In this document: in pieces, positions 8,281-26,402 of the stretch
Numbering within the stretch: position 1 is the first letter of the stretch
Layout: every line of letters begins with the position of its first letter
Source: Chromera velia
Lineage: Eukaryota > Sar > Chromeraceae
DNA length: 30,922 nt
NCBI GenBank assembly: GCA_018398765.1
Contig: JAHBMJ010001392.1
Coordinates: forward strand, 1 to 30,922
Reading direction: 5' to 3'
Program-made: the position numbers and the translations under genes
Notes under the pieces: generated by a model
Told to the model about the DNA's origin: nothing
The model's database searches: none
What the model saw: only the letters and a program-made list of their open reading frames with translations

Positions 8281-9060
8281 CTACATAAAGAACATCCATC
8301 TTAACTTGGTTGAAAGAGGAACTTCTATGTCTTCTGTGTAGCTTTTCGCTCCCTTCAGCAGTGCTTTAAAACCCTTTTCCTCCTTTGACTCAAGAAACGT
8401 ATCGTCTGTATAAAGACCTGCGTCAAAGTCCACTGTATATCCCTGCAGACCCACCTTTACCTTTATCCTTCCTGTCTGTCGTCTGCCTCCCTCCAGTTCT
8501 TTGTCTGCTCTCCTTTTTATTTTAGCAAGCATATCGTTGGTGTACATAGAATAAATGACAGGCCCTGCCGGACTTCCCTGCTTCTCTCCTTTCTTTTCTC
8601 TCCACCACCAGTCCGTTCCTTTCACTCTCACCCTTATATCTCTTACCGACTCCACAATCCAATCAGCCATCCAGTCTGACAACTTGTTTTTCTTCAGCTG
8701 TCTGTAGAGTTTTTCGTGTCTCACTTCATCAAACGCCCTTGTAAAATCCAAAAAAGCAATAAAAAACACAAGAACACAAGCAATATTATTCAACAAAAGA
8801 AAAATTGCGTCAAGCGTAGCTGATCTCTTCTTGTATGCAAACTAAAAAGGTGTGGCAAAGTCCATGTGCATCCTTTCTTCATCACTTGCCCCCCTCATCA
8901 CCAGTTCTCCATACTTTACTATTGCAGAGGCCAAGTGAATGAGTCTCCACGTCCCTAGAAAAGCCTGCATCTTTTCTGGCTTTGGGACTGGAGCGATTAG
9001 CAAGTCATTCCAGCCTTTCAGCCATCATGTGTATCTTGCTGAGACAGAAAAGAGATAGGT
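8281..9060 (-). pseudogene. LINE reverse-transcriptase fingers and palm
   Basis: In order on the minus strand: GWNDLLIAPVPKPEKMQAFL (fingers), HLASAIVKYGELVMRG, MDFATPF-stop-FAYKKRSATLD, FLDFTRAFDEV (motif A with catalytic Asp), QGSPAGPVIYSMYTNDML (motif B) and LYTDDTFL (motif C, 8401-8412). Motif C is normally Y/F-A-D-D; here Ala is Thr, with both Asp kept. At least one in-frame stop lies between motif 0 and motif A. The RT identity is secure; activity is not expected. Confidence 0.85.
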
Positions 9061-21400: not shown

Positions 21401-24400
21401 TCTCGTGACAACTCCTTTTCTCTTTCTCGTTCTCTCTCCTTTTCTCTGGCTCTTTGTCGAAATCTCTCCAACTGCTCTGCTGCTTCTCTCTCTCTTTCAT
21501 TCTCTTTCTCTTTTACCCGTTCCCTTTCCTTCTCCCTCTCCTTCTCCCTTGAACGTGCGGGATCTGATGAAGAAGGCACAGAAGGATGTGAGGACGAAGG
21601 AGACACTCTCCCTCTGTCCTTTTTCTCGTGAGAGGAAGAGGGACTTCCAAGAGAAGGTCTCTGGGCCTCTCTTCCATGCCCTCCTCCCGAGGCATTGCTA
21701 ATGCTGTTGCTGTTCCTGCCCTTGTCAGAAGACTTCCCCCGACTCCCCACAGGAAGAGAACTGTCACCCCTAGTGGGAGGAGATCCGTTCCCCCCACCGT
21801 CACTGGGGGGTGCCCTGCTTTCACTTCGTTGTCTAACGGGAGCAGATGAGGAGGGGGGGGCACGTGGGGGCAGGGAAGACGCCCTCGCTGCTGAGGAGGA
21901 CGTTCCCACCCCCTCCTTCCCCTCCCTGTCTTTTGAACTGGAGTCGGACTTCGACTGTTCCTGTGAACTTTCCTTCTCCCTCTCTTTCTCTTTGCCATTC
22001 TCCCTTCCTGCCCCCTCTCTGTCTGCAGAAGGGGATCCTCGACCAGCAACAGAGGACTTGGCAGGCTCGTGATGGGAAGGCTGGGGAGGGGGTGGGGGGG
22101 GAACGGACTCTAATGAGACGGCGAGGGAAGTCTCGGCTGCCGAATGGACTGAGGGAGCGTGGTTGTGAGTGTGCGTGTACCCTCCTCTGGTGTTCTTGGT
22201 GATGCGGGAAGACTTAGTGGACATCCGGACAGCTGCACGCACGCATAAAAAAGCATGATACAAATCAAATATTGTCATTGACCCAATGGACCTAGCCACA
22301 TGACGAAAAGAGAGAGTTTCTGTTTTCTAAACCAGAGTCAAGAAGAGCTCAGAGAGTTCAGCCACACCCGCCAAACAGATCTACTAGGAAGACGAAAACC
22401 ATTTCTCCTGAGCAGCGGTATGGAATCGAGGGGGGCCTTTTTCGGCTTTTAGCACGAGAACTTCACAAACAGTAAGAAAGACGTGATCCTTCCTGCTCCT
22501 GCAAAAGACTGTCTGGGTGGTTGACTGACTGACAGGGTGCATGTGTTGTTTCTCCGTCGTCGTAGTTTGGTTTGGGGAGGCATTGGGTCAGAGACTGCAG
22601 AGAGGGGGTGGAGGAGGGAGGAGAGTTTCGTTTCCCTGAACATATGAACAAATCTGCCACATGTCTCCCTGCATCCTTATCGCATTCAATGTCTGTCTGT
22701 CTCTGCATACATGTACAACAGGCAGACCCCGTCAACCCTCAAAATACACCAAAGCAAATTCTCTCTCCAACCACAACTTGATTCCATCCATCCCATGATT
22801 GCAATCTCTAACTATGCATGCAACACGAGAGAGGAATTTGGTCCCCACCCTCCCCGAGGAAGACAAGGAGTCACTCACCTTCCAAGTAGGGTTCTTCAAA
22901 CTGCCGCAAAGACTCACGTACAGAAGAAAAGAAAGAAAGGAGCAACCATGCACAAAGACAGACAGACAGACAGACAGACGGACAGACGGACCGACCCCAA
23001 CGTTGGGAGGGAGCTTGATGGTGTTGAGAAGGTCCCCTGGAGGTATCTCCTCGAAGTTCGGGTTGTTCGAGTGCAAAGAAAGGGCGGGGGACAAAGACTG
23101 CAGCTGGGAGATCTTTGCCTGCATCACCGGGTGTTGCAGAAGTTGTCCCATAGAGGGCCTCGTCACCGGGTTCACCTGCAGATCGAAGAGAAGAGAACAG
23201 AGGAGGGATTTACTTAGATATGGTGTGCGTAGCATGAGTGCTCTCTCTTTTTCTCTTTCTCTCTCTCCAGACTCTCCACACAATTCGGCATGAGATGAAA
23301 CACGACTTCCAACGAGACGAGACGAGTGAACACATCCACAGACCTGTAATAGAAGAGCCACCAGACACTCCAAATCGCTGCTGAAGGCTGCAGGAATGCA
23401 AGAGTATTCGCCCCTCAAGACCTGCGCAGAAATCAGCAAACGCACAGAACGAATGCCAACATGATATTAATAGCATTCTAAGGCAGAAACAAACGATCGA
23501 GGAATGTGAATCAGCCTTCCCCGGCGAGCAGAGGAGACGCACGTATACGCATGGACCGACCGAGAGGGAGACATGAACCCAAGTTGATGTGGATTGCACA
23601 GGTTTTCAGTATGTCAGACAGTGTGCTTCTCCCACATCCAATGCACTAGACCAGGAAGTGAAAACAAACCAAGCGGGTTGAGGGTTCTTCCAATAGATGC
23701 AAGTTTTATTTCTTCTTGTCCACCTTATTGACTGACCTTTCTGTAAAGAGCTTCCATGTCGTCTGCCCTGAAGGGAGGCTTCAAAGCGCACATCTCGTAT
23801 AGGATCACCCCCAACGACCACACATCGCTCTTTGCGTCGTAAGGCATGTCTTTCCACACCTCGGGGCTGCATGCAGAAAGAAGACATCGTAAGGCATGTC
23901 TTTCCACACCTCGGGGCTGCATGCAGAAAGAAGATATCGTAAGGCATGTCTTTCCACACCTCGGGGCTGCATGCAGAAAGAAGATATCGTAAGGCATGTC
24001 TTTCCACACCTCGGGGCTGCATGCAGAAAGAAGATATCGTAAGGTATGTCTTTCCACACCTCGGGGCTGCATGCAGAAAGAAGATATCGTAAGGCATGTC
24101 TTTCCACACCTCGGGGCTGCATGCAGAAAGAAGATCGAAGAAAACTCTCTCTCAGTCACCAGTGCAGCTCGGAAGTCAAGCAGAGACTGCTTCCAAGGAA
24201 GATGGAGAAACCGAAACGCGCGTCCTTGGGAGTCTTCGAAATCTACCGCGAGTCGAAAAAAGCTGTGCATCAAGAAAGGAAAGCAGGAAGGAAGCACAGA
24301 CCTACCTCGCATAGTACGGTGTCCCCGTTTGAGTGTACAGCATTCCCCTCTTGGCGACTTTGGAGACGTTGAAGTCCCCGATTTTCACATCGCCCCCCCT

Positions 24401-24708
24401 GGTCAGAAACACGTTGGCAGACTGCATGCAAGACAAGACAAAGAGAGGACAGAGACGAGAGAGAAAGAGAAAGTAGAAGGATTATTTTAGCCAAGTTCAT
24501 GCACGGGAAGAGATCGTTAAAAGCGCTTTCCAACGTTTGTTTTTTAAAATGCAGCGAGGTAAAACTGCAGGGAGGGTATGAGCGCTACAATTTTCTTTTG
24601 CACTTGTTGCACAAACGACAGAAGGGTCAGAATGGGATCAAACGGGGTGTCAAACAAAGCAGCAGTTGATAGCGAGAGAAAAACAGAAAACATGGGAACT
24701 CTCTCTTG

Positions 24709-24741
<33 letters not shown>

Positions 24742-25064
24742 GCTGACCTTCATGTCTCGATGAAGAATTTTGAGGTCGTGAAGAGCTTTCAGGCCCTGTG
24801 CACACTGCATTTATTCAAGAAACAGAAAAGGTGCACGCACTTAGTTGCACAGACAGATGGATGCAGGAAGCCCTGCGTTTGCACATCTATTTGAAAACAT
24901 ATGCATGTGTACTATCTGTCCTGTGTGTGCTGCATGGAGAGAGGTCCTGTGGTGTTTCCACGAGTGAGTCAGACACTTTGAGAGGAAGCGTCCAAAACCT
25001 TCCTTGTCAAGAGTACAAAACGCACACGGTCTCTTGGTCACATGGAAAGACACAAATGCATAGG

Positions 25065-25107
<43 letters not shown>

Positions 25108-25705
25108 ACAAACACACATCTGTACAGAAATATATACATCTATGCGTATGTATATATATACATAGAGAGAGAGAGAGAGAACAAACGAACGAATGAATGA
25201 ACGAACGGACCCCAATAAGAATTCTCCAGATGTCCGACTCCTTGAAGTACGTCCTGCTCTTCTGGTGCTCTACAATCTTCTGGTACAAGTCTCCCCCATC
25301 CGCATATTCCGTCACAATGCTGCAGTACAGGGAAGGAAGGAAGGAAGGAGGGACAAAGAATTGTTTCATTATGCAGACTTGCAGGTCGTTTTCTGATCGA
25401 GGATTTCCAGCTGGTCTTCCTTCCTGCTTTACAACCCCTGTCCCTACAGCGCAGTCACTTGCGACACAATACATTCAACCTTTGTTTTGCATGTGAAGAG
25501 GTCCCATCGCTCGTCTCTCTTCCTCCCACATGTGCACAAACAAACACCCGGTGTCTTTTCTCCTTGAAGTATCCCCTTCTCTTCTTGCCGGCTCTCCGTC
25601 TTCCTGCGGGCTGCCGCCGCCACCTCTACGTCCTTGCACCTGCACACTCTCTTTTCAGTATGTGCGCAGGCCAGTCCGCTTCGATACAATATAACACTCA
25701 CTCAG

Positions 25706-25898: not shown

Positions 25899-26402
25899 TG
25901 CCGCCAACCTCCAGCAGCGCGGCTGTTTCCATTTCTCACGTACTCCACTCATCGTACGCAGACAGGCAAAGGGATCAGCTGATAAGTGACTTACCAAAGT
26001 GTGTGGCTGTTCTCGTCCAGGAAAGCTTCCTTGTAGGCGACGATGTTCTGGTGCCTGCATGTGAATTGACAGGAACATGCATGCAGTAAGTGCGCTCACG
26101 TGCGCAGGGACGGCTTCCCAAATAGAGGAGAACTCTGCTCCAGTGCCTTGCACAACCATCTGTCATGCAAGGGAAGCTACAAAGCAAGCATGCATGCACT
26201 CCAATCACGCACACACTCACTTGACAGACGCCAGCAGTCGTACTTCGTTGAGCGCGTTTTGCTTCTCCTTGTCGGAAAGGTTCGGCAGTTTCACCTTCTT
26301 AAGTGCGTAGTCCTTTCCATCTGACTTTCTGATCACCTTATACACACTGCTGTAGGCCCCTTCTCCCAGATGAGAAACCTCCTGGAAGTCAGCAAGCGAC
26401 AT
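18293..26402 (-). CDS. NIMA-related (NEK) Ser/Thr protein kinase with a long charged tail
   Basis: Exons by phase and GT-AG signals: 26402-26221, 26054-25995, 25319-25211, 24804-24748, 24421-24306, 23866-23737, 23421-23344, 23175-22996, then 22912-22879 or 22594-22534, 22232-21210, a candidate small exon near 20440-20415, 20041-19410, 18983-18667 and 18456-18293; about 1,040 aa. The kinase domain (residues 6 to about 270) has GEGAYSSV, K35, E53, HRDMKSANV (132-140), D152-F-N in place of DFG, GTPYYASPE and [18 protein letters not shown] and LPKPNY after it are NEK-like. The tail is Ser/Pro-rich, then dominated by Arg/Glu/Lys runs that may form a single charged helix, and finally Arg/Asp- and Gly-rich. 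NEKs act in cell-cycle, centrosome and flagellar control; the exact role here is unknown. The first eight exons are firm; the exon 10 to 20041 junction is not resolved. Confidence 0.85.
19315..19380 (+). repeat. CA microsatellite in a NEK tail intron
   Basis: Two CA runs separated by one AA interruption near 19353, ending about 30 nt from the donor of the exon 20041-19410. The dipeptide-repeat frames across it are artefacts. Confidence 0.9.
20041..20170 (-). repeat. Diverged duplication of a NEK splice-acceptor region
   Basis: The acceptor at 20042 (ATCATCTGCAG followed by AATGTCCGAAGGGAGAGTCC) has a degraded copy about 110 nt upstream on the minus strand (ATCATCTACCGCACGTCTGG, then AAGGGAGAGTCCCC). 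The older copy has lost its CAG. Confidence 0.6.
20415..20448 (-). other. Candidate micro-exon in the NEK tail
   Basis: A segment with acceptors CTGCAG (start 20448) or CGTCAG (start 20440) and donor GTCAGT. The 26-nt form converts phase 1, left by the exon ending at 21210, into phase 0, needed by the exon starting at 20041, and would add a peptide ending HSDALPNL. Evidence is phase arithmetic only. Confidence 0.35.
20873..20894. repeat. Palindromic GATC tetramer run
   Basis: TGATCGATCGATCGATCGATCA is a short self-complementary tandem repeat within a NEK intron. Confidence 0.85.
22534..22594 (-). other. NEK alternative exon 9b (LPKPNYDD form)
   Basis: 61 nt between CTCTGCAG and GTCAGT. Entered in phase 0 from the exon ending at 22996 it reads [20 protein letters not shown] and leaves phase 1, which joins cleanly to 22232. 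LPKPNY after the kinase domain resembles many NEK proteins, so this is probably the constitutive choice. Confidence 0.6.
22879..22912 (-). other. NEK alternative exon 9a (FEEPYLE form)
   Basis: 34 nt (or 22 nt if the CGGCAG acceptor at 22901 is used) after a long pyrimidine tract, with a strong GTGAGT donor. In phase 0 it reads [11 protein letters not shown] and leaves phase 1. Its larger-form acceptor GTGAG is weak. It has the same entry and exit phases as exon 9b. Confidence 0.5.
22959..22993 (+). repeat. ACAG microsatellite beside NEK exon 8 donor
   Basis: ACAG units next to the donor at 22995, inside the intron. It supplies several alternative GTC-type donors on the minus strand. Confidence 0.8.
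23838..24137 (-). repeat. Six exact 50-bp tandem copies of a NEK splice-acceptor/exon junction
   Basis: Units start at 23838, 23888, 23938, 23988, 24038 and 24088, nearly identical (one C-to-T in unit 5, small changes at unit ends). Each carries, on the minus strand, the last 21 nt of intron 5 including CTGCATGCAG and the first 29 nt of exon 6 (CCCCGAGGTGTGG...). Every unit therefore holds a complete 3' splice site: acceptors precede 23866, 23916, 23966, 24016, 24066 and 24116. Because 50 is not a multiple of 3, only 23866 and 24016 keep the kinase frame. All three minus frames are open across the array. Confidence 0.95.
24709..24737 (+). repeat. CT microsatellite next to NEK exon 4 donor
   Basis: A CT (GA on the gene strand) run about 10 nt inside the intron after the HRDMK exon. 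Confidence 0.85.
25067..25180 (+). repeat. CA, TA and GA microsatellites in NEK intron 3
   Basis: CA run at about 25067-25115, ATGTATATATATACAT near 25148-25163, and GAGA at about 25164-25180, close to the exon-3 donor at 25210. Confidence 0.85.
25718..25895 (+). repeat. Long CA-rich microsatellite in NEK intron 2
   Basis: CA runs with TACA and GAGA interruptions over about 180 bp between exons 2 and 3 of the kinase gene. The Thr/His and Cys/Val frames through it are artefacts. Confidence 0.9.

Follow-up and report, generated by a model that had tools for sequence, protein, structure and literature searches.

Tandem repeats that cross intron–exon boundaries have been published under the name 'mirages' in amphioxus, for Adh3 and for the globins BflGb6 and BflGb9 (PMC3087553). 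Such arrays are described there as unstable in length and variable in copy number, and RT-PCR suggests that splicing is left undisturbed. At BflGb6 one haplotype carries six units and the second one three, next to the authentic boundary (PMC3087553).

The present locus lies in Chromera velia, in a window that is one entire contig (JAHBMJ010001392.1; 30,922 nucleotides, analysed at its full length). As in a mirage, it contains a direct tandem repeat whose unit crosses an intron–exon boundary, with the authentic boundary intact at one edge of the array and the gene otherwise open, the end of the last exon being provisional.

The NEK-type gene and its array

The gene was modelled by hand on the minus strand as eight exons running from 26402 to 23007, which join without stops and encode a full kinase domain (Pfam PF00069, 1e-63). 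The closest solved structures are those of NEK1 (1.5e-59) and NEK2 (2.9e-56) and, judged by these similarities, the gene is a NEK-type protein kinase with a complete kinase domain. Its exons, all from the hand model, are as follows.

26221..26402, minus strand: NEK exon 1 (ATG at 26402, start picked by hand)
25995..26054, minus strand: NEK exon 2
25211..25319, minus strand: NEK exon 3
24748..24804, minus strand: NEK exon 4
24306..24421, minus strand: NEK exon 5 (donor GTAGGT from 24305)
23737..23866, minus strand: NEK exon 6 via acceptor 1
23344..23421, minus strand: NEK exon 7
23007..23175, minus strand: NEK exon 8 (end provisional)

The modelled donors of the gene are GTGAGT, GTAAGT, GTCCGT, GTCAGC, GTAGGT, GTCAGT and GTCTGT, and its acceptors end in TGCAG in six cases of seven and in TGCATGCAG in two of the seven. 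Elsewhere in the window, also on the minus strand, are an open frame of a cyclophilin-type peptidyl-prolyl isomerase (583-1125; PF00160, 2.3e-56) and a reverse transcriptase domain (8284-8841; RVT_1, 6.9e-13), the mark of a retroelement or its remnant.

The array occupies the end of the phase 2 intron between exons 5 and 6 (24305-23867), across which the joined protein reads YYA-S-PEVW. Tandem Repeats Finder gives it a period of 50, 6.0 copies, 98% matches and a score of 584 (23837-24135), far beyond chance. On the minus strand each unit consists of an intron tail of about 20 nt (19-20) ending in TTCTTTCTGCATGCAG, followed by a 30-nt exon head starting with CCCCGAGGTGTGG; at the unit junction this head, an intron tail of 19 nt and one additional base add up to the period of 50. 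Copies of CTGCATGCAG stand at 23867, 23917, 23967, 24017, 24067 and 24117, such that the candidate first bases of the exon on the minus strand are 23866, 23916, 23966, 24016, 24066 and 24116. The units differ from one another at 0-2 bases, units 2, 3 and 4 being identical and units 1, 5 and 6 having distinguishing bases. When the array stretch was searched against the genome (177.8 Mb, 4040 contigs), the single match was the array itself. On the plus strand of 23837-24135 the palindromic CTGCATGCAG yields antisense acceptor-like sites as well, and one unit of the array has an antisense donor-like AAG|GTATGT.

The repeat finder, the unit alignment and the kinase matches thus bear out what an earlier note on this DNA had described, namely six near-identical 50-bp units with complete-looking acceptors in a NEK-type gene. 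Its description of the unit as an acceptor plus the head of exon 6 also holds, with the correction that the head is of 30 nt rather than 29. Its proposal that near-identity reflects recent expansion fits the alignment; homogenisation would give the same look.

Six candidate acceptors and their frames

The consequences of using each acceptor were read from the gene model.

23837..24135, minus strand: boundary minisatellite of six 50-bp units, each an intron end plus the start of exon 6 (Tandem Repeats Finder and unit alignment)
23837..23866, minus strand: exon head of unit 1, the start of exon 6 at acceptor 1, kinase frame kept (unit alignment, gene model, Pfam PF00069)
23916..23917, minus strand: acceptor 2 junction, frameshift with a stop 59 nt into the exon (frame analysis on gene model)
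23966..23967, minus strand: acceptor 3 junction, frameshift with no stop through the modelled exons (frame analysis on gene model)
24016..24017, minus strand: acceptor 4 junction, in frame, adding 50 residues after GTPYYA-S (frame analysis on gene model)
24066..24067, minus strand: acceptor 5 junction, frameshift with a stop 59 nt into the exon, the neighbouring exon copy having G>A (frame analysis and unit alignment)
24116..24117, minus strand: acceptor 6 junction, which the transcript reaches first, frameshift with no stop in the modelled exons (gene model)

Only two acceptors therefore give an intact kinase model, acceptor 1 as it stands and acceptor 4 with its insert added. The frames of the gene model agree with the earlier note in all these respects: the kinase frame is kept at 23866 and 24016 and shifted at the other four acceptors, the 24016 acceptor adds 50 residues in the activation segment, and no stop interrupts any of the three minus-strand frames within the array. 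The insert at acceptor 4 would stand between the activation segment and the PE of the APE-like motif, where it would probably ruin the kinase.

With regard to which acceptor might be used, a published scanning rule holds that the first AG downstream of the branch point is chosen (PMC1431707). With a branch point above the array, this rule would point to the out-of-frame acceptor 6, and for acceptor 1 to be used it would need a branch point of its own. At each of acceptors 1-5 a branch-point-like CTTAC, supplied by the exon copy, does lie upstream, starting at a distance of 27 nt; at acceptor 6 no branch-point-like YTNAY motif was found 14-48 nt upstream. The motif is a weak guide and not a decisive one, since it is likewise absent at four of the six other acceptors of the gene.

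Similar arrays elsewhere in the genome

A whole-genome search for three copies of TGCATGCAG at 31-61 nt spacing returned 70 forward and 34 reverse matches (104 together), with arrays on at least 24 contigs, that of the NEK gene included. The exon side was inspected for 22 of the 23 other contigs (C2427 was omitted as irregular) and Pfam was queried for 19 of the 23 (the omissions being C571, C1886, C3706 and C2427). A Pfam-supported exon lies directly below the array on seven of the 24 contigs, counting the NEK contig, or on six of the 24 if C625 is set aside, and in five of the six other Pfam-supported contigs the boundary falls inside an array unit. The exons concerned encode MFS (C1765, 2.6e-08), ankyrin (C304, 8e-07; C625, 1.4e-06), cNMP-binding (C3715, 5.3e-09), PUL (C2749, 2.5e-06) and TRM13 (C3972, 0.024 for the exon alone) domains.

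At C1765, C3715, C2749 and C3972 an upstream donor, chosen by hand, is in phase with the exon-proximal acceptor. Joining lifts the Pfam score of the MFS exon from 33.6 to 71.4 bits, and the TRM13 exon joined to its upstream exon scores 52.4 bits against 34.1 for the upstream exon alone. For the cNMP-binding and PUL cases the gain from joining is only about 1 bit (from 36.4 to 37.0, and from 27.4 to 28.4, respectively), such that Pfam supports the exon, while the precise junction depends on phase. Each unit repeats 20 nt of exon head in the MFS array, 8 nt in the cNMP-binding and PUL arrays, 9 nt at C304 and about 10 nt, by eye, at C3972.

Other candidates fared less well. The ankyrin exon of C625 was withdrawn as a clear mirage, as a CCCCAG 33 nt below its array may be the real acceptor. 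An FkbM-like methyltransferase at C3793 looks good by eye, and its Pfam score is owed almost entirely to the upstream exon, at 22.6 bits after joining and 22.0 for that exon alone. There was no match in Pfam at C730, C835 and C3631, and in a second batch of ten candidates the only matches were those at C3972 (TRM13, 0.024) and C3619 (TAFH, 0.13). Several other array contigs look exon-like by eye, without firm homology. A codon-score test for exons below arrays was set aside, its training data being weak and even the NEK exon reaching only 0.104 of the null.

Spacings were compared in six of the arrays whose exons have Pfam support and are 50, 52/50, 44/53/96, 38/39, 45 and 35/70. Of these six only the 45-bp array (C3715) keeps the frame at every acceptor, and there is thus no general pressure to keep it; for C304 and C625 the frame test took the intron phase to be that of the exon-proximal acceptor. 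The array at C304 (L012:1-1650) is a long one of 44/96 bp upstream of the ankyrin exon, and there the palindromic CTGCATGCAG makes the opposite strand resemble better, pyrimidine-rich acceptors. That at C3776 (L051:1491-2967) carries TGCATGCAG in 29.5 units of 50 bp with 100% matches; N near both edges raises a suspicion of gap filling.

Whether such arrays are more frequent than expected was gauged with background and control words. In a background sample of 191.5 kb, made up of random regions, flanks, kinase loci and the window, the single words TGCATGCAH and TGCATGCAG occur 87 and 35 times, respectively. One qualifying TGCATGCAG array in this background translates into about eight expected genome-wide, as compared with the at least 24 contigs observed; this random-placement estimate points if anything to an excess and, with its one background array, is too loose to settle anything. 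The reversed control of the TGCATGCAG array pattern gave 0 matches, a weak control in that the random sample likewise lacks the reversed word. With the control word TGCATGCAH, arrays gave 477 matches, many of which are TGCA microsatellites, as compared with 104 for TGCATGCAG. Counted by eye on contigs up to C619, among the matches listed, there are about nine proper TGCATGCAH arrays, these being the ones not shared with the TGCATGCAG array set, against five TGCATGCAG arrays, a ratio (about 9:5) near the 87:35 of the single words.

The donor-like word AGGTRAGT likewise forms arrays, with 65 + 34 = 99 matches, many of them GAGT microsatellites; about 11 are proper arrays by eye among the matches listed, counted regardless of exon-end position. 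The reversed control of this pattern gave 508 + 435 = 943 matches, far more than 99, and donor-like arrays are therefore not in excess. An acceptor-specific amplification process is not needed, as TGCATGCAH and the donor-like word form arrays too. Overall the control words show no clear excess of arrays at acceptors and there is no clear sign that arrays target splice sites, and ordinary minisatellite turnover explains the arrays best. A donor-like core AGGTGAGTGCCTTG, or a close variant, is common to minisatellites at C394, C398, C537, C576, C1569, C3631:60532-61281 and L051:640-727 (minus strand). This may reflect either the dispersal of a minisatellite core or a donor context that is preferred.

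Turnover, splicing and relation to known systems

The reading that we consider probable is that the NEK array is a neutral boundary minisatellite, a mirage, spliced mainly from the exon-proximal acceptor at 23866. Its anatomy is observed; neutrality and the predominant use of acceptor 1 are what we infer. A short tandem duplication would have captured about 19 nt from the end of the intron and 30 nt from the start of the exon, joined with one additional base, after which turnover, presumably by slippage or unequal exchange, would have increased the copy number. Such an array would sit upstream of the intact original acceptor and exon, giving a normal mRNA if exon 5 joins 23866, and the remaining copies would leave with the intron or yield low-level out-of-frame transcripts. 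Boundary arrays could persist and grow in this manner because the duplication would be harmless for as long as a full copy of acceptor and exon adjoins the exon. The same architecture at C1765, C3715, C2749, C3972 and C304 supports this account.

The competing acceptors could instead form a functional switch, in which copy number or trans-factors set the proportions of active kinase and of frameshifted or insert-bearing forms. The six acceptor sequences are almost equal and all frames are open, acceptor 4 is in frame, and the early stops from acceptors 2 and 5 could lower the mRNA; set against this, the acceptor 4 insert lies within the activation segment and the amphioxus mirage genes apparently splice normally (PMC3087553). 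Moreover, the frame is lost at some acceptor in five of the six arrays compared for spacing. The earlier note's idea of copy number as a splice-strength or isoform switch is unsupported, and we regard such a switch as improbable. Somewhat less doubtful, while still unlikely, is a broader proposal, in which the exon-proximal acceptor is chosen by position among identical acceptors, at any copy number and across the boundary minisatellites of the genome. Exon definition would then beat first-AG scanning, and copy number would set, in a heritable way, how much of the kinase mRNA is misspliced.

As improbable as a switch is an assembly artefact, in which short-read gap filling multiplied a single duplication and the true number of copies is one, two or far from six. 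The published Chromera velia genome (193.66 Mb, 5953 scaffolds) was assembled with velvet at k=71 and gap-filled (PMC4501334). If the present assembly is that one, both the k-mer length and the gap filling lend weight to an artefact and, units 2-4 being identical, their copy number is uncertain. Precedents are the N near both edges of the array at C3776 and the amphioxus BflGb6 array, reported as misassembled in the draft genome (PMC3087553). The distinguishing bases in units 1, 5 and 6 nevertheless imply at least four distinct units, and arrays of the same design occur elsewhere in the same assembly. Far less probable again is an array of nascent introns, in which the GT of each exon copy (CCCCGAG|GTGTGG) would pair with the AG of the next unit to give 43-nt mini-introns and 7-nt mini-exons as an intermediate of intron gain. 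GT is present in all units, and an intron of potato RdRp is reported to have arisen from a boundary-crossing duplication with its donor from the exon copy (PMC4974935); but GTGTGG is unlike any modelled donor of the NEK gene, and five 7-nt mini-exons would add 35 nt and break the frame.

By itself the NEK array is most likely a neutral minisatellite that happens to lie in an inconvenient position, and it is the recurrence in several genes, together with a testable acceptor choice, that lends it moderate interest. Identical 3' splice sites which differ only by position constitute a clean natural test of that choice, in which the first AG below the branch point, the acceptor nearest the exon and competition between acceptors could be told apart. 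If several genes of one alga have such arrays, its RNA sequencing could answer the question directly. Boundary arrays further provide material from which introns can be gained and length polymorphism can arise.

With respect to lineage, the NEK array belongs to a photosynthetic alga and is known from one assembled copy, whereas the mirages are those of amphioxus. Among the literature matches listed, those on Chromera splicing included, none describes mirages in algae or alveolates, subscription journals being mostly outside this coverage. As to photosynthesis, light-harvesting proteins have 58 matches in the genome, the best of which resembles first the LHCI chains of entry 9vfj and then many Lhcr, FCP, VCP and ACP-type proteins, and this marks the organism as a photosynthetic alga, likely with a plastid of red lineage; a search of the genome with PF00223 (photosystem I) found nothing.

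In structural terms the described systems correspond to the NEK array as follows. The amphioxus mirages, like the NEK array, have tandem units that cross the intron–exon boundary, and the BflGb6 unit, like that of the NEK array, joins an intron end with its splice acceptor to an exon start, the unit sizes being 50 bp in the NEK array as compared with 150-160 bp in BflGb6 and 10-72 bp in Adh3 (PMC3087553). The duplication in potato RdRp similarly lies over an intron–exon boundary and carries a putative branch site, a pyrimidine tract and a 3' splice site, but it is a single duplication in which a new intron was detected, whereas the NEK array has six copies (PMC4974935). Tandem acceptors of the NAGNAG type also have nearby AGs competing for one exon; in the NEK array, by contrast, the acceptors are 50 nt apart and the full surrounding sequence is copied. 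As judged by its sequence, the NEK array adds a photosynthetic alga to the mirages, a kind of array that is known and has been little noticed.
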